A stretch of DNA of 39,364 bases from a virus: positions 1 to 39,364 of the IMG/VR virus record IMGVR_UViG_3300009103_000070; one strand, written 5' to 3'. The position numbers were made by a program, and so were the translations under genes. How positions within the stretch are numbered: the stretch's first letter is position 1; the number at the start of each line of letters is the position of its first letter. The notes under the pieces are model-generated. The model was given only the letters and a program-made list of their open reading frames with translations, ran no database searches and had not been told where the DNA came from. This document shows positions 3,502-30,337 of this stretch, piece by piece.

Positions 3502-4459
3502 ATCAAGGAGGTTATTGATAGTTGATGCTCTAAACGCATATTTCCGAGCATATATTGTTAATCCGAGTCTATCAAAGAACGGCCAGCCAATCGGGGGCTA
3601 TAAAGGATTTCTTGGAATCCTGCAAAAGCTTTGTCGAGAAATGAAGCCGGCTGAGATTATCATCGCTTGGGACGGCGCCGGCGGATCATTACGCAGAAAA
3701 GAGGTCAACTCCAACTACAAGGAGGGTCGAAAACCTATTCGCCTCAACCGCGATGTCCGAGTGTTGACAAAAGATGAGGAGATGCAGAATAAGGTTTGGC
3801 AACAATATCGCTTAATGGAGATGCTTAACTTCATGCCCGTCATCCAATTGATGGCTGATCGGGTCGAGGCTGATGACATCATCTCATTTGTTGCTCAATC
3901 CCCGCAGTATTCAGGCTGGGAAAAGATTATTGTTTCGAGCGACAAGGACTTCTTTCAACTTTGCGATGATGAAACAGTACTTTATCGCCCCATACAAAAG
4001 AAGTTTATCAACAAGCCGAGGATCCTGGAGGAGTTTAAAATTCACCCAACGAATTTTGCTTTAGCTCGTGCTATGGCGGGAGATAAGTCCGACAACCTCC
4101 CTGGGGTCAGGGGCGTCGGCCTGGGTACCATTTCAAAAAGATTACCATTCTTTGCCGGCGAAGAATCAGTAACAATCCCAGAACTTATTGAGTTTTGTGA
4201 AAATGATAATACGGGTCTAAAGGCCTTCTCTTCGATATGTGAAGCAGAAGATATTATTAAGGAAAATTATAAAATTATGCAGCTTTACTCGCCGACAATG
4301 TCAATCGATGATAAAAGCAGAATAAAATACATTCTTGATAATTTTGAGCCACAGTTTAACAAGACGGAAGTAATTAAGCGCATGGCGGAAGACGGTTTCG
4401 GAAATTGGGATACGTCAGACTTGTTTACTACATTCAAAAGAATTTCAAATAAGTCTTGA
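3494..4459 (+). CDS. 5'-3' exonuclease, FEN/T4 RNase H-like
   Basis: A 321-residue FLAP-type nuclease that would remove RNA primers and flaps during lagging-strand synthesis. The acidic metal-binding residues are in the expected order: D11 (LLIVDALNAYFRAY), D60 (IIIAWDG), the EADD cluster at 125-128, SSDKDF with D150 and D152, then GDKSDNLPGVRGVG with D197 and D200. The helix-hairpin-helix DNA-binding loop follows D200. The Lys/Arg stretch NYKEGRKPIR near 74-83 is typical of the 5' nuclease arch. The start overlaps the J-domain gene by 8 nt. Its TGA stop lies inside the -35 box of the helicase promoter. Confidence 0.9.
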   Translation: MTKSRRLLIVDALNAYFRAYIVNPSLSKNGQPIGGYKGFLGILQKLCREMKPAEIIIAWDGAGGSLRRKEVNSNYKEGRKPIRLNRDVRVLTKDEEMQNKVWQQYRLMEMLNFMPVIQLMADRVEADDIISFVAQSPQYSGWEKIIVSSDKDFFQLCDDETVLYRPIQKKFINKPRILEEFKIHPTNFALARAMAGDKSDNLPGVRGVGLGTISKRLPFFAGEESVTIPELIEFCENDNTGLKAFSSICEAEDIIKENYKIMQLYSPTMSIDDKSRIKYILDNFEPQFNKTEVIKRMAEDGFGNWDTSDLFTTFKRISNKS

Positions 4460-4484
4460 CATCGCGGGCATCGTATGTTATATT
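4456..4484 (+). promoter_or_regulatory. sigma70-type promoter for the helicase operon
   Basis: TTGACA (4456-4461) and TATATT (4479-4484) have a 17-nt spacer. The TGA of the -35 box is the stop codon of the upstream nuclease gene. The leader is about 15-20 nt, with an AGGGGG ribosome site before the ATG at 4505. Confidence 0.85.
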
Positions 4485-4504
4485 AAGAATAGATAGGGGG
4501 AAAA

Positions 4505-5866
4505 ATGCCTAAGGAAGACTTTAGCCAATATGGCAAAGACTTTCAGGAAACCTTGTGTCATCTGATCTTGGTCAATAGGCCCTTTGCAGATCAGATGTTT
4601 GAGGTTTTGAATATTAATTTTCTGGAGCTTAAATATCTTCAAGTTTTTGTCCAGCTAGTTAAGGAATATAGAGAAAAATATTCTGTCCATCCGACAGAAA
4701 AAATTATGACTTCTATATTGAGAACGGAATTGACCAACGAAAATGAGTCTGTCCAACAACAAATTAGGCATTTTTTTGCTAGAATATCTAAAACTACAAT
4801 AGAAGATTCTGAATATATTATAGAAACATCTTTAGACTTTTGTAGGAAACAAAAGCTAAAAGAGGCAATGCTTAAATCTGTAAAACTATTAAAGAACTCG
4901 TCTTTTGACGAGATTTCTCAGGTTATAAACGAGGCGCTCAAGCTTGGTTCCGATTCAAATTTCGGACACGATTATGTAAAAGATTTTGAACAGAGATTTA
5001 TTTTTAAAGCTAGAAATCCAATCGCCACCGGCTGGGCGGAAATAGATGCGATAACTCATCAGGGCTTGGGACAGGGAGAACTTGGGGTGGTCATTGCCCC
5101 AACGGGCGCCGGTAAAAGTATGGCCCTCGTTCACATAGGCGCCCAAGCTATGAAGGCAGGAAAAAATGTTGTATATTATACACTAGAATTATCTGAAACG
5201 GTAGTTGGGTCACGCTTTGACAGTTGTATAACAAATGTTCCGCTCAATGATTTATCTGCATTTAAAGAAGAAATATATGAAAAAGTTCAAATGATAGAGG
5301 GCAACTTGATAGTGAAAGAGTATCCCACCAAGTCTGCTAGCTGCCAAACCTTAAAGAATCATCTAGAAAAATTGGTGAACCGAGGATTCAAGCCCGATAT
5401 GATTCTGGTGGATTACGGAGATTTATTACGACCAATTTCAACATTAAGGGAGAAAAGACACGAGCTGGAGACTATTTATGAACAGCTTCGAGCAATTGCT
5501 CAGACGCATGGTTGTTGTGTCTGGACAGCATCTCAAACGAACCGTTCTGGATTAAATGCTGAAGTTATTACAATGGAATCAATATCGGAGGCTTTTAATA
5601 AATGTTTTGTTGCAGATTTTATTTTTTCAATATCCAGAACGGCGGAAGATAAATTGGCAAACACGGGACGTATTTTTGTTGCTAAGAATAGGAATGGTGT
5701 TGATGGTATAATTTATCCAATTTATATGGATACCAGAAATGTAACAATTAATGTTCAAACATCTACCGGGGAGACCATCGGCGATGTAAAAAAAGAAGCC
5801 AAGAAGAGACAAGAGAAAAAATTAGTAACGTTATATAAGAAAGTAAAGGATGGGGGGAGAAAATAA
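4505..5866 (+). CDS. replicative DNA helicase, DnaB/T4 gp41-like
   Basis: A 453-residue RecA-fold hexameric helicase that would unwind DNA ahead of the phage polymerase. An N-terminal helical domain (about 1-150) precedes the ATPase core. Walker A is APTGAGKS at 198-205, followed by a YYTLELSE strand (motif 1a) and Walker B in DMILVDYGDLL. An ASQTNR motif (H3-like) and a VAKNRNG arginine-finger region come near the C-terminus, which ends in a Lys-rich tail. Its length fits the T4 gp41/DnaB family. It is transcribed from its own promoter and its TAA overlaps the ATG of the reductase gene by one base. No primase gene is obvious in this window. Confidence 0.9.
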   Translation: MPKEDFSQYGKDFQETLCHLILVNRPFADQMFEVLNINFLELKYLQVFVQLVKEYREKYSVHPTEKIMTSILRTELTNENESVQQQIRHFFARISKTTIEDSEYIIETSLDFCRKQKLKEAMLKSVKLLKNSSFDEISQVINEALKLGSDSNFGHDYVKDFEQRFIFKARNPIATGWAEIDAITHQGLGQGELGVVIAPTGAGKSMALVHIGAQAMKAGKNVVYYTLELSETVVGSRFDSCITNVPLNDLSAFKEEIYEKVQMIEGNLIVKEYPTKSASCQTLKNHLEKLVNRGFKPDMILVDYGDLLRPISTLREKRHELETIYEQLRAIAQTHGCCVWTASQTNRSGLNAEVITMESISEAFNKCFVADFIFSISRTAEDKLANTGRIFVAKNRNGVDGIIYPIYMDTRNVTINVQTSTGETIGDVKKEAKKRQEKKLVTLYKKVKDGGRK

Positions 5867-14136: not shown

Positions 14137-14360
14137 TGACAAGGGGCGATTACGTTTTGATATATGACACCGACTGCGACCGGACCAACCCCGGAGTTAG
14201 AATATGTGGCAGCGGCATTATTTTGGAAGATTACGATATCCCCAATACCTTTGGCAGAAGGATGTACATAATCTCTGTTAATGGACAAAATAGAACCTAT
14301 GATGACGCCTTTTATTCCTTTGAGGTAACGAGTAGAGCAAATGAAGAGCTTAATAAATAA
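14136..14360 (+). CDS. small hypothetical protein
   Basis: A 74-residue protein with MTRGDYVLIYDTDCDRTNPGVRICGSGIILEDYD, resembling a small beta-barrel (SH3-like) with a GDYV start strand. No family is recognised with confidence. The start overlaps the upstream TAA (TAATG) and the end overlaps the methyltransferase start by 20 nt. It probably serves as an accessory of the downstream operon, but nothing in the sequence shows a function. Confidence 0.55.
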   Translation: MTRGDYVLIYDTDCDRTNPGVRICGSGIILEDYDIPNTFGRRMYIISVNGQNRTYDDAFYSFEVTSRANEELNK

Positions 14361-15072
14361 TATTATTTGTGGCGATGCCATAGAAGAAATGAAAAAGATT
14401 CCAGATGCTTCGGTGGATATGATCCTATGTGATCTTCCCTATGGGACAACTAATTGTAGGTGGGACACCCCGCTCCCACTCGACGAGTTGTGGGAACAAT
14501 ATTTGAGAGTAACAAAGCCCAGCGCAGCCATTGTCCTAACAGCTTCGCAGCCATTTACGAGTGTCCTCATTTGCTCAAATTTGAAACACTACCGGTATAA
14601 TTGGGTGTGGGAGAAGTCTAAGGCCACAGGATACCTGAATGCCAAGCGGATGCCCCTGAAAGCACACGAAGAAGTTTGCATCTTTTATAAGAAGCCACCT
14701 ACTTATAATCCTCAGTTCTGGGAGAGCACCCCATACAATAAGGGAAAGGCTCACAGACCTACCGAGGTTTATGGAAAACAAAAATCTGTGTTAGTAAAAA
14801 GTGACGGACAGCGCTATCCTAGATCAGTTCAATATTTCAAGACTGCTGAGAGCGAAGGTAAAACGCGCCACTCCACACAGAAGCCTTTGGCTCTTTTTGA
14901 ATATATGATTGAAACATACACAAATCCTGGAGAATTGGTGCTTGATAGTTGTATTGGGAGCGGCACAACCGCAGTGGCCGCGAAAAGATTAAAAAGAAAC
15001 TATATTGGTATTGACAAAGACCCAGAATATGTTATAATAAGTAAAGAAAGGTTGGAGAACACACATGAATAA
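14341..15072 (+). CDS. DNA adenine-N6/cytosine-N4 methyltransferase, beta class
   Basis: A 243-residue SAM-dependent methyltransferase. Motif IV is DLPYG (31-35) in SVDMILCDLPYGT, preceded by the IICGDAIEEMKKIPDAS segment. The FxGxG-like SAM motif is LDSCIGSGTT (about 201-210) near the C-terminus, with RHSTQKPLALFEYMI before it. Catalytic motif first and SAM motif last is the beta-class order. DLPY instead of DPPY, and DSCIGSG instead of DPFxGSG, are accepted variants that leave the exact base unclear. It lies between small genes and dnaE, overlapping dnaE by 8 nt. Its likely role is modifying phage DNA against restriction. Confidence 0.88.
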   Translation: MKSLINNIICGDAIEEMKKIPDASVDMILCDLPYGTTNCRWDTPLPLDELWEQYLRVTKPSAAIVLTASQPFTSVLICSNLKHYRYNWVWEKSKATGYLNAKRMPLKAHEEVCIFYKKPPTYNPQFWESTPYNKGKAHRPTEVYGKQKSVLVKSDGQRYPRSVQYFKTAESEGKTRHSTQKPLALFEYMIETYTNPGELVLDSCIGSGTTAVAAKRLKRNYIGIDKDPEYVIISKERLENTHE

Positions 15073-18531: not shown

Positions 18532-19536
18532 ATGTCTTTAACGGTTGATGTTGTTGTTGGCGTTCAACACGGTGATGAGGGGAAAGGGAAAGTAACTCAC
18601 CACCTTTTAAAAAACGGAAAATATACACACTGTGTCAGATATAATGGTGGTTGCAATGCGGGGCACACCATATATCATAAGGGCGAAAAGTTTGTCACAC
18701 ACCACATACCGGCCGGCGTATTTTTCGGGATTAAAAGCATTATCGGCCCTGGATGTGTGGTGGATATTCATAAGTTCTTTGCAGAGATCAAAATGCTCAG
18801 GGAGGGTGGTATCGATGTTGCCGACAAAATCTTTATTGCAAAAAACGCCCATATGATTAAAGAAAAGCACACCGCAGCAGATAGCGGAGAAGAGCGTATT
18901 GGTACAACAAGGACGGGTAACGGCCCGTGTTATGGAGACAAGTATGCCAGAATAGGCACGCGCGCCGCAGACTTTCCAGTGTTGCATGATTACTTAATTG
19001 ATATGTACGAGGAGTTTTATTTACGCTCTCCGGATGCCACTGTTCTTTGTGAGGGCGCACAGGGTTTTAATTTGGATATTGATTGGGGTGATTACCCTTA
19101 TGTCACCAGCAGTCACTGTACTACTGCCGGCGCACTTCTTAATGGTTTCGCGCCAAAGTCCGTGAGGAATGTTTACGGGGTAGCAAAAGCATACGAAACA
19201 TATGTGGGGTCAAAAGATTTCCAACCAGATGAGGATGTGTTTCATATTTTGCAGGAAGTGGGGCAGGAGTTCGGCGCAACGACTGGGCGCCCAAGACAAT
19301 GCAACTGGTTGAGTCTTCCTGGTTTGCAAAAAGCAATTGATGTAAACGGGGTGACACATTTAATAATAAACAAGATTGATATTTTAGAAAAAGTGGAGGC
19401 ATGGTCGTTGTATGTCGGAGGCAGAACAAACAACAATTTGTTTGCCTTTCAAAATAAGGAACAATTCTGCGCATATATAACGGATTATTTGGGGGCAATT
19501 GACGTAGTTTTCTCTTCAAGTCCAGAGACAATTTAA
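18532..19536 (+). CDS. purA: adenylosuccinate synthetase, short archaeal/phage type
   Basis: A 334-residue PurA-family enzyme, about 100 residues shorter than bacterial PurA (432 in E. coli). It would join IMP and aspartate using GTP to give adenylosuccinate, the first step to AMP. The phosphate loop is HGDEGKGK (13-20) with catalytic D15, and NAGHT supplies H45. IGTTRTGNGP (123-132) stands where bacterial PurA has IGTTGRGIGP. EGAQGFNLDIDWG and TTGRPRQ (250-256) follow, then the guanine-recognising NKID (280-283). The Asp in GDEGKGK and the NKID motif argue for IMP/GTP use rather than the phage PurZ (aminoadenine) enzyme, in which the Asp is reported replaced. Its operon partner is the Smr gene; IMPDH lies 3.6 kb downstream. 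Confidence 0.85.
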   Translation: MSLTVDVVVGVQHGDEGKGKVTHHLLKNGKYTHCVRYNGGCNAGHTIYHKGEKFVTHHIPAGVFFGIKSIIGPGCVVDIHKFFAEIKMLREGGIDVADKIFIAKNAHMIKEKHTAADSGEERIGTTRTGNGPCYGDKYARIGTRAADFPVLHDYLIDMYEEFYLRSPDATVLCEGAQGFNLDIDWGDYPYVTSSHCTTAGALLNGFAPKSVRNVYGVAKAYETYVGSKDFQPDEDVFHILQEVGQEFGATTGRPRQCNWLSLPGLQKAIDVNGVTHLIINKIDILEKVEAWSLYVGGRTNNNLFAFQNKEQFCAYITDYLGAIDVVFSSSPETI

Positions 19537-19838: not shown

Positions 19839-20150
19839 ATGATGAGTGGTTTAGAAATTTTTGAAAATGTAGTTGAAATTCACGCAGAAGTGGAGGATGA
19901 AAACGTTAGCACAAAAGAGCAAAAGATGATTGAATATGTTCGCAGCCTCAAGGCCCTTGAGGATTCTATGGAGCCATTCAAGGAGCAAAAGCGTGAACTC
20001 AAGAAAGACTTTAAAGAGCAGGGCTGGCTGACTGGAGATGAGATCTCTATGACTGTCAAGGCTTATCGAATGATGAGCACAAAAGACTTTGACTTCGATG
20101 AATTTACACAAGTTTATGAATCACTTGCAAAAGTGGCAGGAAAGGTGTAA
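19839..20150 (+). CDS. helical hypothetical protein, first gene of the operon
   Basis: A 103-residue protein with a strong promoter and a good ribosome site. It is Lys/Glu-rich and coiled-coil-like in the middle (LEDSMEPFKEQKRELKKDFKEQGWLTGDEI), with a C-terminal DFDEFTQVYESLAKV segment. The pattern superficially resembles small GapR/DUF2312-like DNA-binding proteins, but the match is weak and I do not assign it. It overlaps the next gene by one base (TAATG) and leads the nuclease/ParB/methyltransferase set. Confidence 0.6.
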   Translation: MMSGLEIFENVVEIHAEVEDENVSTKEQKMIEYVRSLKALEDSMEPFKEQKRELKKDFKEQGWLTGDEISMTVKAYRMMSTKDFDFDEFTQVYESLAKVAGKV

Positions 20151-20644
20151 TGACACCAGAACAAAAATATCAAAACCTTTATGAAAATATAGCCCAACTT
20201 TGCGAAGAGCAAGGATGGGGTGATCCATTCAGCTATGCTCGCTCAAAGGAGATCAATGCTGCGATAGTTCTTGGTCACACTGTGGCTCAAACCTTTTCGG
20301 GTGCAGATGCATTTAACCAAAAGGGAGAGCCAGTAGAATACAAATCTACAACCAGCAAGAACCCCAAGGGAGCCTATACTGGTATTTCTGTTCAGCCAAC
20401 CTGGAAAGAGCAGGAAGCATACCTGGAAAAAGAAAAAATCGCCAAGTACCCAGAGCATTACTACAATCGCTTCAACAAGGGAAAGCTTGTGGAGAGTTGG
20501 AAAATGAGCGGAAAGACAGTCTTTAAACTATTAAAACCGAAACTTCGTAAAAAGTTTGATACCGTTCTCCAGAAGAAGGATCCTCGTTTAAGTGCGAACA
20601 TTACTTGGACAGAGATTAAAAAATATGGAACAAAGGTAATTTAA
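20150..20644 (+). CDS. putative PD-(D/E)XK restriction-like endonuclease
   Basis: A 164-residue protein with a compact PD-(D/E)XK-like core. A helix carries E34 (RSKEINAAIVLGHTVAQ), then GADAFNQKG with D53 and VEYKST with E63 and K65. The D-x(9)-E-x-K spacing and the EYK strand match type II restriction nucleases, where the triad binds metal and cleaves DNA. The C-terminal half is Lys-rich, consistent with DNA binding. It sits two genes upstream of a DNA methyltransferase in the same operon, as expected for a restriction-modification unit. I cannot name a recognition site. A host-DNA-degrading or repair nuclease is the alternative. Confidence 0.55.
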   Translation: MTPEQKYQNLYENIAQLCEEQGWGDPFSYARSKEINAAIVLGHTVAQTFSGADAFNQKGEPVEYKSTTSKNPKGAYTGISVQPTWKEQEAYLEKEKIAKYPEHYYNRFNKGKLVESWKMSGKTVFKLLKPKLRKKFDTVLQKKDPRLSANITWTEIKKYGTKVI

Positions 20645-20645
20645 G

Positions 20646-21737
20646 ATGAATTATGGGAAAGTTGTTAATTTGAAAAGCAGCGCGCAAAGAAGCTGTAATT
20701 TACAAAACTATAAAAATCAACGTATGGAGTGCCCAGTTGATGGAATAAAGACGTGCTATTTTGTTCCTCTAAGTGATATTGAGAGTTTCTCACACAATCC
20801 GGCGCGCTCCGGCGGCACACTGTCAACTAAGGTAACTCAAATTCTTGAATCTTTTATATCTGACCCGAAAGGACAAATAGAACCCATCTGTTTGGAGTGG
20901 AACCCAGCAACAGGTAAATTCGATATTGTGTTCGGATGCCATAGGGAGTGGGCCGCTAATGATGCTTACGCAAAAGGCCTAGCAATTGCTAACCACCCAA
21001 TTACTGGAGAGCCGGGTATTTGGGCTTGGGTTTTCACGGGCAGTCCAGCCGAGCGCACAGCACTTAAGATGAGGGAAAATGGCGATAAGCTGCCTTCATC
21101 CCCGGCTACAAAAGACGAAATGGTCAACATGTTGAGGGAATATATATCTCAAGGGGGTCTCGATATTGGCTACCCAACCTCATTCCAGAGCCTGAGTGAT
21201 AAAGATAAATACGATCGAGCTAGAGCATTTATGAAAAGCAATACGCCTTTTTGGGGCGGCCGTAAATTCAAAGGAGTTTGGAATAAGCTTATTCAAAATG
21301 GTAATCCCAATGTTGGATTGAGTTTTGCCAACTATAGTAAAGCAAAGATAGCAGAATATTTCTGCGCCCACAACCCCTATGGTATTAAAGAGTCGGATTT
21401 GGATTCAAAGCTTTCCGGTTCGGTGGTAAAAATAAACAATGTAGTATATGGAATATATTTTGCAAGCCAGAAGTCTGAAATGGGTGGCGCCCTTCCAACC
21501 AATGCATCTCTTTTGAGACACAATAAAAACATCGATCATATGATTGTTGTCGGAGTACTCAATGATTCGACAACGGCTACTGTGGCTGCTTCGCGAATAA
21601 CCATCGAAAAGAAGGCCAAAAAGTGGAATAAAAATATTTTCAATGCTTTCGATGAGATTTTCTGGATGCCACAAACCCTCAAAGAGACTTCAGTTCATAT
21701 CTTAAAAGGTACTTGGGTTTCGAGAAATACCCTATAA
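20646..21737 (+). CDS. ParB-like nuclease-domain protein
   Basis: A 363-residue protein with a ParB-N-like domain. VPLSDIESFSHNPAR (40-54) corresponds to the opening strand-helix, a long helix and a loop follow, then FDIVFGCHREWAANDAYAKG (92-111) corresponds to the GERR-like CTP/nuclease motif. The rest (residues 150-330) is mixed and not recognised. ParB-like proteins next to methyltransferases occur in many phages and are thought to act as DNA nicking, CTP-dependent clamps or specificity factors. Here it lies between a PD-(D/E)XK protein and a methyltransferase, which suggests a DNA-recognition or cleavage partner. The TAA overlaps the methyltransferase start (TAATG). Confidence 0.65.
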   Translation: MNYGKVVNLKSSAQRSCNLQNYKNQRMECPVDGIKTCYFVPLSDIESFSHNPARSGGTLSTKVTQILESFISDPKGQIEPICLEWNPATGKFDIVFGCHREWAANDAYAKGLAIANHPITGEPGIWAWVFTGSPAERTALKMRENGDKLPSSPATKDEMVNMLREYISQGGLDIGYPTSFQSLSDKDKYDRARAFMKSNTPFWGGRKFKGVWNKLIQNGNPNVGLSFANYSKAKIAEYFCAHNPYGIKESDLDSKLSGSVVKINNVVYGIYFASQKSEMGGALPTNASLLRHNKNIDHMIVVGVLNDSTTATVAASRITIEKKAKKWNKNIFNAFDEIFWMPQTLKETSVHILKGTWVSRNTL

Positions 21738-22654
21738 TGAGTTCAGCCATACTACTCCACCAAGAAGGTCTACAATTTCTATCGGACATTCCCGATAATT
21801 CCATTGACCTCATCCTAACTGACCCACCCTACATCACGTCCAGAAAGACTGGAATGGATAAGTGGGTGGGTCATGTTGAGAAACAAGATGCGTCCGACTC
21901 CACGAATATTAAGACGGAAGAGGAGTGGGGAGCTTATAAAACAAAAGAACAATGGGATTTATGGTTTGAAAATTCTAAAATTAAGCCGGCGAGTCGAGAG
22001 AAGAAGCTAGCCAAGATGAAGGCCGACTTCTTAAAGTATGGCAGCATCTACGGAAAGAAATATGCCGTTACAACCAATTATGGCAAGTGGGATTCCGAAT
22101 TTACACTGGAACAACTTGAGCTATTCATTAATCACTTTTACAGAATCCTCAAGCCTGGAGGCACTTGCATTATCTTTTTTGATTTGTGGAAGATTACAAA
22201 CTTAAAAGAATTATTGGAGGGTGCAAAATTTAAACAGATTAGGTTTATTGAGTGGATTAAAACAAATCCGCAACCGATCAATAGTAAAGTAAATTATCTA
22301 ACCAACTGTCGAGAGATAGCGTTGCTTGGTATCAAAAAGTCTAAGCCAACATTCAATAGCAAATACGATAATGGAATATACATTGATAATGGAATACATT
22401 TTCATCCTGTGCAGGGAGGCAAAGAAAGGTTCCATCCCACACAAAAAAGCCTCCCACTGTTCAAGGACTTAATTTTGAAGCATTCAAAAGAGGGGGATTT
22501 GGTTTTGGATCCATTTGCCGGCTCGGCCACAACGGCCATTGCGGCCATACATACCAGTAGAAAGTTTATTGGATGTGAATTAGATGAGGATTTTTTTAAC
22601 AAAAGCAAGCAAAGAATTGAAAATCACTTAAACACTTTGGAGAAAGAAGAATGA
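21737..22654 (+). CDS. DNA methyltransferase (N4/N6, beta class)
   Basis: A 305-residue methyltransferase. The ATG at 21737 is preferred over one 24 nt upstream because it overlaps the ParB-like stop. Motif IV DPPY (29-32) is in SIDLILTDPPYI. The SAM motif LDPFAGSATT (257-266) is near the end, with RFHPTQKSLPLF before it; this is the beta-class order. Residues 35-110 hold a charged target-recognition-like insert (GMDKWVGHVEKQ ... KYGSIYGKKY). Being two genes from a PD-(D/E)XK protein suggests it protects phage DNA from that nuclease or from host restriction. The ATGA overlap with dUTPase (22651) places it in the same transcript. Confidence 0.85.
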   Translation: MSSAILLHQEGLQFLSDIPDNSIDLILTDPPYITSRKTGMDKWVGHVEKQDASDSTNIKTEEEWGAYKTKEQWDLWFENSKIKPASREKKLAKMKADFLKYGSIYGKKYAVTTNYGKWDSEFTLEQLELFINHFYRILKPGGTCIIFFDLWKITNLKELLEGAKFKQIRFIEWIKTNPQPINSKVNYLTNCREIALLGIKKSKPTFNSKYDNGIYIDNGIHFHPVQGGKERFHPTQKSLPLFKDLILKHSKEGDLVLDPFAGSATTAIAAIHTSRKFIGCELDEDFFNKSKQRIENHLNTLEKEE

Positions 22655-23184
22655 TTTTAGAGTATTATCGAACAAGGCCGGATGCAATTCCGCCAACAAG
22701 AGCAAACCCATCCGATGCAGGATTGGATGTTCATTTTAATCCAGACGACGGAGAAATAAAGGGAGTTTACCTTGAACCAGGAGAGAGCAAACTATTCTCG
22801 ACAGGATTAAAGTTCGGAATCCCCCACGGTTATATGCTTGAAGTCAAGAACCGCAGCGGCAACGCCTCAAAACGCAGTTTACTCGTCGGAGCCTGTGTCG
22901 TTGACTCTGGTTATGACGGAGAGGTTTTTGTTAATTTACACAATGTCGGTATAGAAACACAATTTATTAAGCGAGGAATGAAGATCGCGCAAATTGTAAT
23001 GGTTCCCGTTGTTCACTTTCGAGCACTGGAAACATCACAGGATAATCTCTACGAGTGGTATCCCATTACGCTGAGTGACAGGGGCGATGGCGCACTTGGA
23101 TCAACAGACAAGGGGGGCATTCCTCAAGGCTCAATTGATCCTTATGAAATGCCGCTTGGCTGGGAGCTTGGGGACAAATTATGA
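22651..23184 (+). CDS. dut: dUTP diphosphatase (trimeric dUTPase)
   Basis: A 177-residue trimeric dUTPase that hydrolyses dUTP to dUMP and pyrophosphate, keeping uracil out of DNA and giving dUMP for thymidylate. All five motifs are visible: SDAGLD (21-26), NRSGNASK (67-74), DSGYDGE (85-91), RGMKIAQ (108-114) and RGDGALGST (144-152). A 20-residue extension after motif 5 is longer than in most family members. It overlaps the methyltransferase (ATGA) and the IMPDH gene. Confidence 0.93.
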   Translation: MILEYYRTRPDAIPPTRANPSDAGLDVHFNPDDGEIKGVYLEPGESKLFSTGLKFGIPHGYMLEVKNRSGNASKRSLLVGACVVDSGYDGEVFVNLHNVGIETQFIKRGMKIAQIVMVPVVHFRALETSQDNLYEWYPITLSDRGDGALGSTDKGGIPQGSIDPYEMPLGWELGDKL

Positions 23185-24209
23185 AAATTAAACAATGCCT
23201 CTCATATGACGATGTCTTATTGGTGCCGCAATATTCAGATGTTGAAAGCAGGCTGCAAGTGAGAATCGGCAACTCACTGGACGACGAAAGAATTTTTACT
23301 GCTCCCATTATTTCTTCCCCGATGGACACCATTACGGAAGTAGAGATGGCAGTCAGAATGGACCGGTCTGGTGGTTTGGGGGTTATCCATAGATATAACT
23401 CCATCGAAGAACAAGCAAATATGGTTTGGCTGTGCCGAGAAAACGGAATAGAAAATGTTGCTGCTGCCACGGGAATTAGTGGGGATTATTTTCACCGGGC
23501 CGAGACTCTCGTAGAGAGGGGAGCCGCCATTCTTTGTTTGGATGTTGCCCATGGTCATCACTCGATGATGAGAGAGGCAATAGAAAATATTAAGAGAGAG
23601 TTCCCCCATATTCATATCATGGCTGGAAACGTCGCCACCAAGCGCGCCTTCGAGGATTTGGCATCGTGGGGTGCAAACTCTATTCGAGTGGGGATCGGCG
23701 GAGGATCAATTTGCTCTACGAGGATACAGACTGGCCATGGCGTGCCAACCTTCCAGTCAGTGTTGGATTGTGCATCTTCCGATACTTGGGGGGATGTAAG
23801 AATTATTGCTGACGGCGGGATCAGAAATAGTGGAGATATTGTTAAAGCGCTTGCTGCCGGCGCCGACTTTGTTATGTTGGGTTCTATATTAGCTGGAACA
23901 GAGCAAACTCCAGGTCCGACTTTCACCTCCTCGCAGGGAAAAAAATATAAGACTTATCGAGGAATGGCAAGCAAAGAGGCTCAACATGATTGGAGGGGGA
24001 CACACAGTTCAAACGAGGGGATCTCCACAACAGTACCCTATCGTGGAAATGTTTTGGACATTCTTTTAGATTTGGATAATGGAATACGGAGTGGGTTTTC
24101 TTATTCTGGAGCTACCAGTATGGCCGAACTGCACGCAAAATCTCAATTTGTTTTCCAGACTACGGCCGGCCAGCTTGAAAGTAGTACGCATATTTTAGGA
24201 AGAAAATAG
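23181..24209 (+). CDS. guaB: IMP dehydrogenase lacking CBS domains
   Basis: A 342-residue IMPDH-fold enzyme that would oxidise IMP to XMP, committing it to GMP. SSPMDTITE (45-53) is the IMPDH opening motif. GIGGGSICSTR (171-181) carries the catalytic C178. ADGGIRNSGDIVKALAAGADFVMLGS (210-235) binds the IMP phosphate. The flap region RGMASKEAQHDW is followed by NEGISTTVPYRG with E279. The usual Arg-Tyr flap dyad is not clear. Two CBS modules that normally interrupt the barrel are absent, so adenine/guanine nucleotide feedback through them is missing. GMP reductase is the alternative, but the N-terminal motif is IMPDH-like. It overlaps dut by 4 nt. Confidence 0.82.
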   Translation: MKIKQCLSYDDVLLVPQYSDVESRLQVRIGNSLDDERIFTAPIISSPMDTITEVEMAVRMDRSGGLGVIHRYNSIEEQANMVWLCRENGIENVAAATGISGDYFHRAETLVERGAAILCLDVAHGHHSMMREAIENIKREFPHIHIMAGNVATKRAFEDLASWGANSIRVGIGGGSICSTRIQTGHGVPTFQSVLDCASSDTWGDVRIIADGGIRNSGDIVKALAAGADFVMLGSILAGTEQTPGPTFTSSQGKKYKTYRGMASKEAQHDWRGTHSSNEGISTTVPYRGNVLDILLDLDNGIRSGFSYSGATSMAELHAKSQFVFQTTAGQLESSTHILGRK

Positions 24210-25835: not shown

Positions 25836-26189
25836 GTGAAGGCAACTGCATGGAAGCACACAAAAAAAGATAATAATTTCACTTATATCATACAGGTTGA
25901 TGGTATTAAGGGAGTTAGGAATAAGAACAAAATACTAAAAGAGTTGAAAGATTGGAAGGAATACGGAGAGGGATACGATCCGGCGACTAAGACAAAAACC
26001 TTGATGTATAAAAAGCAGTTTTCGAGCGAGATGAAATGGAAGAAATGGGCAAGGGGATTCCCCCACTATCTTATTGAGATAGGGGAGAAGTCCGGAAAGC
26101 CAAAGCCATATAAGCTCGGATTGGATTATATAGAATCAAAAAATAAGAGAAGGAGGACGCAAGATGGCAAACCCAAAGCGAGCCGATGA
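25836..26189 (+). CDS. basic hypothetical protein
   Basis: A 117-residue Lys-rich protein beginning with GTG after GGAGGA. It contains YIIQVDGIKGVRNKNKILKELKDWKEYGEG and a basic C-terminus ending KKRRRTQDGKPKASR-like residues. No family is recognised; charge suggests nucleic-acid or acidic-partner binding. It overlaps the ClpP-like start by 26 nt. Confidence 0.5.
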   Translation: MKATAWKHTKKDNNFTYIIQVDGIKGVRNKNKILKELKDWKEYGEGYDPATKTKTLMYKKQFSSEMKWKKWARGFPHYLIEIGEKSGKPKPYKLGLDYIESKNKRRRTQDGKPKASR

Positions 26190-26709
26190 TGGGCAGAGTG
26201 AAGAGCCTAGAGTAGTTGGGATTTTTCAGGATATTGATGAAAAGAAGGCGGAAGAGGTAATATATGCATTCAGACTCTACTTGTCGGATTCAGATAAGGA
26301 TATCGAATTATATATTTCTACGGATGGTGGAAGAGCATCTGATATGTTTAGTATATATGACTTCATGAGGGAAGCAAAATCAAAAGTAGATATTGTGACG
26401 TTCGGGCTGGGGAAGGTCATGTCGGCGGGTGTTCTGCTGCTGGCAGCGGGTACAAAAGGGAAGAGAAAGGTCGGGCGCACTTGTAGAATTATGCTGCACT
26501 CTGTTGTGGCTGGCAATGCAGGTCCACTTCACGATTTAAAAAATGAAATGAAAGAGACACAAAAAATACAAGATTTATATATTAAGGCTCTCTGTGCACA
26601 TACCAATTTTACTCCTACGGTCCTGAAAAAGTTATTTATGAAAAATGTTAATGTATATCTTTCAGCGGAGGAGGCAGTAGAGCGAGGCATAGCAGATATA
26701 ATTGTATGA
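26164..26709 (+). CDS. ClpP-like protease (S14) with altered catalytic Asp
   Basis: A 181-residue ClpP-fold protein. The oxyanion strand ISTDGGRASD (51-60), S87 in GKVMSAGVLLLAAG and H112 in RIMLHSVVAG match the ClpP active site. The third residue, Asp in the TERDRFLS motif of E. coli ClpP, aligns with N163 (NVNVYLSAEEAVERG). So either it works as a Ser-His dyad, is weak, or is inactive. It could act with a host Clp ATPase or be a prohead protease, as ClpP-fold enzymes serve in some phages. AAGGAGGA-like bases precede the ATG. Neighbours are a basic protein and a YkuD-like protein, then GroEL downstream, which fits a proteostasis or head-assembly role. Confidence 0.75.
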   Translation: MANPKRADDGQSEEPRVVGIFQDIDEKKAEEVIYAFRLYLSDSDKDIELYISTDGGRASDMFSIYDFMREAKSKVDIVTFGLGKVMSAGVLLLAAGTKGKRKVGRTCRIMLHSVVAGNAGPLHDLKNEMKETQKIQDLYIKALCAHTNFTPTVLKKLFMKNVNVYLSAEEAVERGIADIIV

Positions 26710-28768: not shown

Positions 28769-30337
28769 TTGACTAAGCATTATGGTTCTGGTTCGGAGAT
28801 GAGCCAAAAGATTTTAAAAGGAATCAATGTTTTAGCAGATAATGTAGCTTCGACCCTTGGACCGAGAGGAAGGAACGTTATTCTGCAAGAGAAGGGCAAG
28901 AGGCCCATCATTACGAAAGACGGGGTTACAGTAGCAGAGTTTGTGGACTTGGAAGATCCAATTGAGAATGCTGGTGCTCAGATTATTAAACAAGCAGCGA
29001 TGCAAACAAACCTAGATGCCGGTGATGGAACCACGACGGCAACAGTGTTGTCGCGAGCGATTCTCACTAAGGCGCAGAAGTATATTTCTTCGGGTGTCCC
29101 CCCCATAGAACTCCAACGCGGAATTGAGAAGGCAGTTGAGGTCGTTGTTAGCAACTTAAAGGATGCAGCGCAGCCCATTAGTTGTGAGGAAGATATCTCG
29201 CATGTGGCCACCATTTCGGCCAATAACGACAAGGTGATTGGCACCCTGGTCGGCCGCGCTGTTAGTGCAGCCGGAAAGGACGGCGCCATTACGGTCGAGG
29301 AGGCACGTTCGCATCAAACCAGCCTAGACCTTGTGGAAGGCTTTAGGGTGGACTCTGGCTATGCTGCGACGGCCTTCATCACTGATGAGAGGCGAAGGGC
29401 CGCAACTTACGACAATCCACTCCTGCTAGTAACCGATGAAAAGATTGAACACGTTCAAGATATTATGGGAATCTTGGAGTTGTCTGCTAGGGAGGCCCGA
29501 CCTTTAATTTTCATAGCCAGCGAAGTCGAGGGTCAAGCACTGGCGGCTTTAATTATGAATGTTTTGAAGGGAACTTTGAAGGTCGCAGCGGTCAAGGCTC
29601 CTCGTTATGGCGAAGAGAGACAAAACATTTTAAAAGACCTGGCAATTTCAACCGGCGCCAGTTTTATCAGTAGGTCACAGGGCCGAAAGCTCAATGACGT
29701 TAAACTAACTGATTTTGGAACAGCGAGCAGAATTGATATAACGCGCAATCAAACAACGATCGTGGGCGGCGAAGGGGATGCTGGTTTGATTGATCGCCAA
29801 GTCTGCGATCTAAAGGCTGATTTGGTAGAAGAAGCAAATTTGCATGAATGCGAAAAAATTCAGGATAGGATTGCTAGATTATCCAGTGGCATTGCCATCA
29901 TTCGTATTGGCGCGGCCACCGAGATTGAGATGGTCGAGAAGAAGCACAGGGTCGAGGACGCACTTGAGGCAGTTAGATCCGCACAGTTGGAGGGCATAAT
30001 CGTCGGCGGAGGCACGGCGTTGATCCGAGCGACTACAAACTTAGAGGTTGACGTAGATAATGACGATCAGCTTCTTGGCGTTGAAATAATAAAAGAGGCA
30101 GTTCAGGCGCCCCTTCGACAAATGGCATTGAATGCTGGCCTGTCACCTGATATAATTTGTAACACCGTACTAACTCATGAGGGAAACAAGGGTTATAACT
30201 TCCTAACTGACGAGGTGGGAGACTTAATCGAAGCAGGGGTTATTGACCCAGTTAAGGTAACGAGGACAGCGCTACAGAATGCAGCATCAGTCTCTGGTAC
30301 TCTTTTAACTACAAATTGCGCGGTGATTGAAAAATAA
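28769..30337 (+). CDS. groL: GroEL chaperonin (60-kDa)
   Basis: A full-length 522-residue chaperonin that folds proteins in an ATP-driven cage with GroES. TLGPRGRNV (29-37), DGVTVA (51-56) and GDGTTT (85-90) form the ATP site; IVGGGTALIRA lies in the C-terminal equatorial domain. The apical and intermediate domains are complete in length. The C-terminus ends TTNCAVIEK without the GGM repeats of bacterial GroEL, so the cage floor differs. The start is TTG with GAGGTG upstream. The GroES gene is about 20 kb upstream (8120), in a different operon. Phages carrying both subunits are uncommon, though several large phages do. Confidence 0.95.
   Translation: MTKHYGSGSEMSQKILKGINVLADNVASTLGPRGRNVILQEKGKRPIITKDGVTVAEFVDLEDPIENAGAQIIKQAAMQTNLDAGDGTTTATVLSRAILTKAQKYISSGVPPIELQRGIEKAVEVVVSNLKDAAQPISCEEDISHVATISANNDKVIGTLVGRAVSAAGKDGAITVEEARSHQTSLDLVEGFRVDSGYAATAFITDERRRAATYDNPLLLVTDEKIEHVQDIMGILELSAREARPLIFIASEVEGQALAALIMNVLKGTLKVAAVKAPRYGEERQNILKDLAISTGASFISRSQGRKLNDVKLTDFGTASRIDITRNQTTIVGGEGDAGLIDRQVCDLKADLVEEANLHECEKIQDRIARLSSGIAIIRIGAATEIEMVEKKHRVEDALEAVRSAQLEGIIVGGGTALIRATTNLEVDVDNDDQLLGVEIIKEAVQAPLRQMALNAGLSPDIICNTVLTHEGNKGYNFLTDEVGDLIEAGVIDPVKVTRTALQNAASVSGTLLTTNCAVIEK

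Follow-up and report, generated by a model that had tools for sequence, protein, structure and literature searches.

The window (the whole 39,364-nt, or 39.4-kb, stretch of virus record IMGVR_UViG_3300009103_000070) carries at 20150-22654 genes for a nuclease, a ParB-like protein and a DPPY-type DNA methyltransferase, found as reported in a first-pass annotation. The cassette, its flanks and a vacant site elsewhere in the window are the following:

19839..20150, + strand: upstream flank, 103-aa ORF of unknown function; a marker of the insertion site, 79% identical in locus L003, where the cassette contains a different methyltransferase
20150..20644, + strand: PvuII-fold PD-(D/E)XK endonuclease, 164 aa, catalytic residues D53, E63 and K65
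20646..21737, + strand: accessory protein of the ParB/Srx superfamily, 363 aa, in a variable slot; GQ..PI, GxxR and N boxes, motif GCHREWAA
21737..22654, + strand: beta-class DPPY DNA methyltransferase, 305 aa, predicted N6-adenine enzyme; motif IV precedes motif I (DPFAGS)
22651..23184, + strand: downstream flank, dUTPase gene (dut; PF00692, E=2e-15); in L003 dut follows the alternative methyltransferase
4460..4504, no strand: empty cassette site, 45 bp, between the RNase H-like (ending at 4459) and DnaB-like (starting at 4505) genes

The nuclease ATG overlaps the stop codon of the 103-aa ORF, a single nucleotide separates the nuclease from the ParB-like gene, and the stop of the latter overlaps the methyltransferase start (TAATG), as the methyltransferase stop overlaps the dut start (ATGA). 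Given this spacing, the cassette genes are likely co-transcribed and translationally coupled. The methyltransferase more likely starts at ATG 21737 than at TTG 21713.

Genes near the cassette serve nucleotide metabolism and replication (dut, IMP dehydrogenase-like, adenylosuccinate synthetase, DnaE). The two enzymes that act on IMP at its branch point, an adenylosuccinate synthetase and an IMP dehydrogenase/GMP reductase-like protein, are encoded in the window (18532-19536 and 23181-24209), and kept in relatives. The synthetase is PurA-like, Asp15 in GDEGKGK being retained and the match to PurZ being weaker. By eye, the 522-aa product of 28769-30337 resembles a GroEL-type chaperonin, and the 181-aa product of 26164-26709 a ClpP-like protease; ClpP-like genes adjoin dnaE in related loci too.

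A PvuII-fold nuclease family of phages

The restriction-like core suspected in the 164-aa protein was recovered by structure prediction. The AlphaFold (AF2) model (pLDDT 94, pTM 0.88) was compared to the PDB by Foldseek, and the top ten matches are all PvuII, over the full length (E 1.4e-5 to 7e-5, probability 1.00, query-normalised TM 0.54-0.62), the superposition having an RMSD of ~6 Å. At the sequence level, hhalign places D53, E63 and K65 on D58, E68 and K70 of the verified PvuII reference sequence, gapless, with E=1.4e-4, and the global alignment with PvuII has a Z of 5.6 over shuffles. A seven-sequence profile (A1) matches a single-chain PvuII at 1.2e-4, wild-type PvuII chains only at 0.15; a deeper, 44-sequence profile (A2) finds PvuII at 0.078. 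The Pfam model Endonuc-PvuII (PF09225) gives 13.2 bits (E=0.087), below the gathering cut-off of 25, and the protein is therefore to be regarded as a relative of PvuII by fold, not as a member of the curated family. In the PHROGs collection it belongs to phrog_35715 (PHROG 35715; E=1e-60), annotated as of unknown function.

The D53, E63 and K65 pattern, which had been read as a PD-(D/E)XK signature, is invariant in 62/62 distinct relatives, all of which also keep the E63-Y64-K65 triplet and the spacing D53-x9-E63-x-K65, the same as in PvuII. In a WGDPFSYAR block each position is kept by 61-62 of the 62 nucleases, and Y76-x-G78 is invariant. The corresponding regions of PvuII lie near the DNA-recognition residues D34 and H83-H85, and this conservation suggests that a single target is recognised across the family. 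The dN/dS ratio is 0.02-0.38 in seven unsaturated pairs; the nuclease is under purifying selection, with an intact active site.

Next to PvuII, the best structural matches are Eco15I and NhoI, 5-methylcytosine-dependent enzymes of the BisI family, whose closest canonical relative is PvuII (PMC11347163). A nuclease of this sort would cut methylated DNA, and the methyltransferase would have another role. Such modification dependence is highly improbable here: BisI enzymes feature QVK/QIK in place of (D/E)XK (PMC11347163), an active site to which the EYK of the phage family (62/62) does not fit, PvuII ranks clearly first by fold, and the partner methyltransferases resemble adenine enzymes.

The cassette resembles the PvuII restriction-modification (R-M) system in that a small PD-(D/E)XK nuclease of the same fold, length and D-x9-E-x-K spacing adjoins a DNA methyltransferase. 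Several features set the two apart. Identity to PvuII is 17-18%, and the residues by which PvuII recognises DNA (D34 and the H83-H85 segment) are not conserved; M.PvuII acts on cytosine N4 (title of 1boo), the phage partners are DPPY or NPPF enzymes, predicted to act on adenine; the window has no controller-protein gene; the phage cassette resides in lytic phages and is mobile among them.

Only three of 50,697 phage records (P-SSM2, P-SSM5 and P-TIM68) encode the nuclease, and 408 confirmed relatives were found in IMG/VR. A search of 84,980 prokaryote species genomes yielded one relative, on a MAG contig, and no recent bacterial source. The nuclease is thus a phage family.

Methyltransferase partners and the variable slot

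The best 80 of the 408 IMG/VR relatives, retrieved by a conserved-pattern search, were used to analyze gene neighbourhoods. Many of these loci are short contigs, and related contigs are not independent; removal of near-identical ones left 50 nuclease-seeded loci, to which the dereplicated counts below refer. By HMM scans, a DNA methyltransferase is found within 2 kb of the nuclease in 45/50, always on the same strand (45/45), so that, of the trio whose co-occurrence had been proposed as a check, nuclease and methyltransferase do go together in other phages among these loci.

The methyltransferase may be of two unrelated types. The window enzyme matches PF01555 (E=6e-32) and, in the PDB, best the adenine methyltransferase 5hek (4e-30), and is 75% identical to the nuclease-adjoining methyltransferase of L005. 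The alternative, NPPF enzyme is ~180 aa long, falls in PHROG 799, and matches the EcoRI methylase weakly. In the dereplicated set 28 loci carry the DPPY type, 17 the NPPF type, none both and five neither, two of the five stopping at a contig edge. In all 17 NPPF loci the distance between nuclease and methyltransferase gene falls between -114 and +74 bp; DPPY genes are adjacent to the nuclease in 12/28 loci, and one gene-length off in 16/28. One nuclease thus retains either of two unrelated methyltransferases as interchangeable partner across phages. In reverse searches the nuclease was found in 61/78 NPPF and 17/35 DPPY methyltransferase loci; it is missing from 17/78 and 18/35, some of these loci being at contig ends. 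Among isolates, NPPF methyltransferases at ≥80% identity occur exclusively in P-SSM2, P-SSM5 and P-TIM68, which also carry the nuclease; in P-SSM2 ~7 kb separate the two genes. The related cyanophages P-SSM4, P-HM2, P-RSM4 and P-SSM7 have neither nuclease nor NPPF methyltransferase.

Methyltransferases could merely shield phage DNA from host restriction, the nuclease being a separate enzyme of host takeover or recombination, and the two sitting together only through the tendency of phages to gather such genes. In line with this, each methyltransferase family is also found without the nuclease, the window encodes another methyltransferase (14341-15072), and three nuclease loci (L007, L055 and L077) have neither methyltransferase type nearby. 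We regard separate functions as improbable, since the alternative methyltransferases are mutually exclusive and 45/45 are on the same strand as the nuclease (best 80 of 408), the nuclease directly overlaps the NPPF gene, one partner replaces the other at the same site in L003, and the pair is kept at several insertion sites and jointly present in isolates. Taken together, exclusivity, common strand, swap, pairing at multiple sites and co-presence in isolates argue that nuclease and methyltransferase function as a pair.

Further methyltransferases were noticed. The product of 14341-15072, ~5 kb upstream of the cassette, is a 243-aa N6_N4 enzyme (PF01555, 5.5e-31) with no nuclease recognised alongside, and a similar gene is found in L151. 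SPPY-type N6_N4 methyltransferases encoded near the nuclease in P-TIM68 and L007 (L002 5009-5923, L007 1884-2807) are a possible third partner type. A Dam-family gene directly follows the DPPY methyltransferase in L004 (8538-9011; match to PF05869), L005 (8333-8806), L011, L016, L023 and L033, and is missing at this place in the window. In L126, which has an NPPF methyltransferase and no PvuII-like nuclease, a 183-aa gene located 1737-2288 bp downstream of the methyltransferase start features a PD-(D/E)XK-like pattern, D..G.DFEWEDKKIELK, and is possibly a replacement nuclease.

The middle protein of the window belongs to the ParB/Srx superfamily, in agreement with its initial assignment as ParB-like. 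Its profile (A3) matches KorB (2.4e-4) and sulfiredoxin (3.7e-4), as well as Noc and ParB, its model (pLDDT 84.7) has the fold of Noc and KorB (probability 1.00/0.98), and G97, R100 and N145 are invariant in 17 divergent relatives, mostly just 15-35% identical to it. No ParA was recognised among the adjoining ORFs. Used as lone query, the ParB-like gene matched nothing, neither in 50,697 phage records nor in the IMG/VR pattern search, as it diverges too fast.

ParB-like genes were found in 13/28 DPPY and in 0/17 NPPF loci of the dereplicated set (best 80 of 408; Fisher p=6e-4, a value which overstates certainty, the loci being related). Elsewhere the slot is empty or is taken by other genes. 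L009, L033 and L039 have a 469-aa protein there, one end of which is putatively HNH; L011 and L023 encode a 639-aa ATPase that looks SF2-like by eye; in L016 and L043 the slot has a GHKL ATPase, with MzaB and the BbrUII/HgiDII restriction proteins as relatives. By eye the L009-type protein had been taken as GmrSD-like, an assignment dropped upon finding a weak HNH match and no DUF262; only HNH-like is claimed. The L011-type protein is SF2/Z1-like by motifs, and has no significant match in Pfam or PDB. GHKL, SF2, HNH and ParB/Srx proteins, the kinds of gene found in the slot, are all known from GHKL (MORC/paraMORC), SFII-helicase and GmrSD-associated restriction operons (PMC2292703, PMC4619093). 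Those operons are bacterial, whereas in phages a single slot takes one or another of these genes, next to a PvuII-fold nuclease that stays constant.

The idea that the three genes make up a fixed system, with ParB providing specificity, was consequently abandoned: the middle gene is absent from many loci or replaced by unrelated families, the ParB-like gene never accompanies the NPPF methyltransferase (dereplicated nuclease-seeded set, best 80 of 408), and the middle gene in some loci stays with the methyltransferase when the nuclease is missing. What stands of the R-M-like system initially proposed is the core of nuclease and methyltransferase, upheld by fold, residues and co-occurrence.

Movement of the cassette among phage genomes

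Locus L003 and the window share matching flanks (103-aa ORF 79%, dut 90% identical) and nuclease (81%). In L003, an HTH gene upstream and an NPPF methyltransferase downstream replace the ParB-like and DPPY methyltransferase part, so that partners have been swapped at a single site. Such alternative methyltransferases at one position are in keeping with a target shared by nuclease and methyltransferase, where methylation would block cutting. Related genomes have the cassette at five or more distinct insertion sites, and empty counterparts occur. It is found upstream of dut in the window and L003, downstream of dut in L004, L005, L009, L011, L012 and L016, after dnaE in L019, L035, L038 and L046, between uvsX and rnh in L020, L040, L044 and L057, and between rnh and dnaB in L036. 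The gene order in L036 is uvsX, rnh, nuclease, methyltransferase, dnaB; the 45-bp rnh-dnaB gap of the window is the empty form of this site, and the dnaE-dut region of the L036 genome is without cassette. The cassette is mobile among related phage genomes.

Modules are exchanged also among close loci, as indicated by contrasting identities. L004 and L005 have nucleases 95% identical, methyltransferases 78% identical and unrelated middle genes. In L011 and L023 methyltransferases are 99% and the SF2-like slot genes 95% identical, nucleases only 76%. Four loci (L095, L100, L105, L107) carry a DPPY methyltransferase with an accessory gene and no nuclease. Both the exchange and the nuclease-less loci link the accessory gene more to the DPPY methyltransferase than to the nuclease.

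These same data may be taken to mean that methyltransferase and middle gene are the real system, the PvuII-like nuclease being an added weapon which shares the mark, a reading overlapping the one we prefer. Persistence of the two genes in the four nuclease-less loci, their joint conservation in L011/L023 and their replacement beside a nearly constant nuclease in L004/L005 favour it. It is nonetheless unlikely, as nuclease and methyltransferase are adjacent, with nothing between, in 12/28 DPPY loci, and NPPF enzymes are partners without any ParB-like gene (dereplicated set, best 80 of 408).

Proposed role and target of the cassette

The locus is best explained as a mobile, partner-swapping, type II-like R-M cassette of lytic phages, directed against unmarked host or rival DNA (probability about 0.7). 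It is a small movable gene set, made up by a nuclease, a changing methyltransferase and often an interchangeable helper gene, and is found in viruses which infect and kill bacteria of the sea and of fresh water. With its help a virus can probably label its own genome and cleave host or rival DNA that lacks the mark. The methyltransferase would place N6-methyladenine on phage DNA at the sites which the nuclease targets. The nuclease would then cut unmethylated DNA, be it the host chromosome, co-infecting phages, or both. The variable middle gene would be an accessory NTPase or nuclease module that moves with the DPPY methyltransferase and probably contributes regulation or a further restriction activity.

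If the pair is an R-M system, there is about an even chance that it attacks host DNA. Cutting of host DNA would feed the nucleotide genes of the phage, and the neighbouring nucleotide and replication genes suit such salvage. Exclusion of rivals is somewhat less probable, and the remaining, smaller share goes to both roles or to selfish spread. The T4 genes denA, denB and ndd have the same purpose as proposed here, host DNA being destroyed and phage DNA spared. T4 tells the two DNAs apart by modified cytosine. The phage cassette, in contrast, would discriminate by methylation. None of denA, ndd and denB is present in cyanomyoviruses, whose degradation of host DNA may follow an undescribed route (PMC2984593). 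A methylation-guarded PvuII-like nuclease is a candidate host-DNA degrader in some of them, cultured P-SSM2, P-SSM5 and P-TIM68 included, and would, if the explanation is true, account for the destruction of host DNA by phages in which the known genes are missing.

Among viruses of eukaryotes, chloroviruses and marseilleviruses likewise combine nuclease and methyltransferase in one virus (CviAI and relatives). Chloroviruses attack host DNA by R-M; the R-M of marseilleviruses leaves host DNA undegraded, and a role in co-infection has been proposed for it (PMC7253447). Because the marseillevirus system spares host DNA, we rate the exclusion of rival phages almost as highly as attack on the host. 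The nuclease of these viruses is a different one (CviAI, GATC), and neither partner swapping nor an accessory slot is described in the same report (PMC7253447). A literature search, subscription journals being outside its reach, found no paper describing the phage cassette.

If the explanation holds, lytic phages wield mobile R-M as a weapon, and partner swapping opens the question of how unrelated methyltransferases converge on one target. More tentatively, one PvuII-fold nuclease of constant recognition may work with unrelated, exchangeable methyltransferases that guard one and the same site, and with an NTPase/nuclease module that can itself be swapped, and be in some T4-like cyanophages the missing host-DNA degradation system; phages would then possess a mobile R-M toolkit, widespread and as yet undescribed.

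Avoided palindromes were compared in nuclease-carrying and control genomes, and none was nuclease-specific. Loci with nuclease and DPPY methyltransferase avoid GAGCTC (1 seen, 36 expected) and CTCGAG (3 seen, 45 expected), as do those with DPPY methyltransferase only (2 seen, 10 expected, and 6 seen, 18 expected, respectively). CATG is equally avoided in NPPF loci with and without nuclease, and CAGCTG, the PvuII site, is absent from some genomes only. As avoidance is also found without the nuclease, the signal is not specific to it, and host restriction is the simpler cause. Avoidance of GAGCTC and CTCGAG runs across the lineage of phages with DPPY methyltransferases, window included, and may reflect host restriction.
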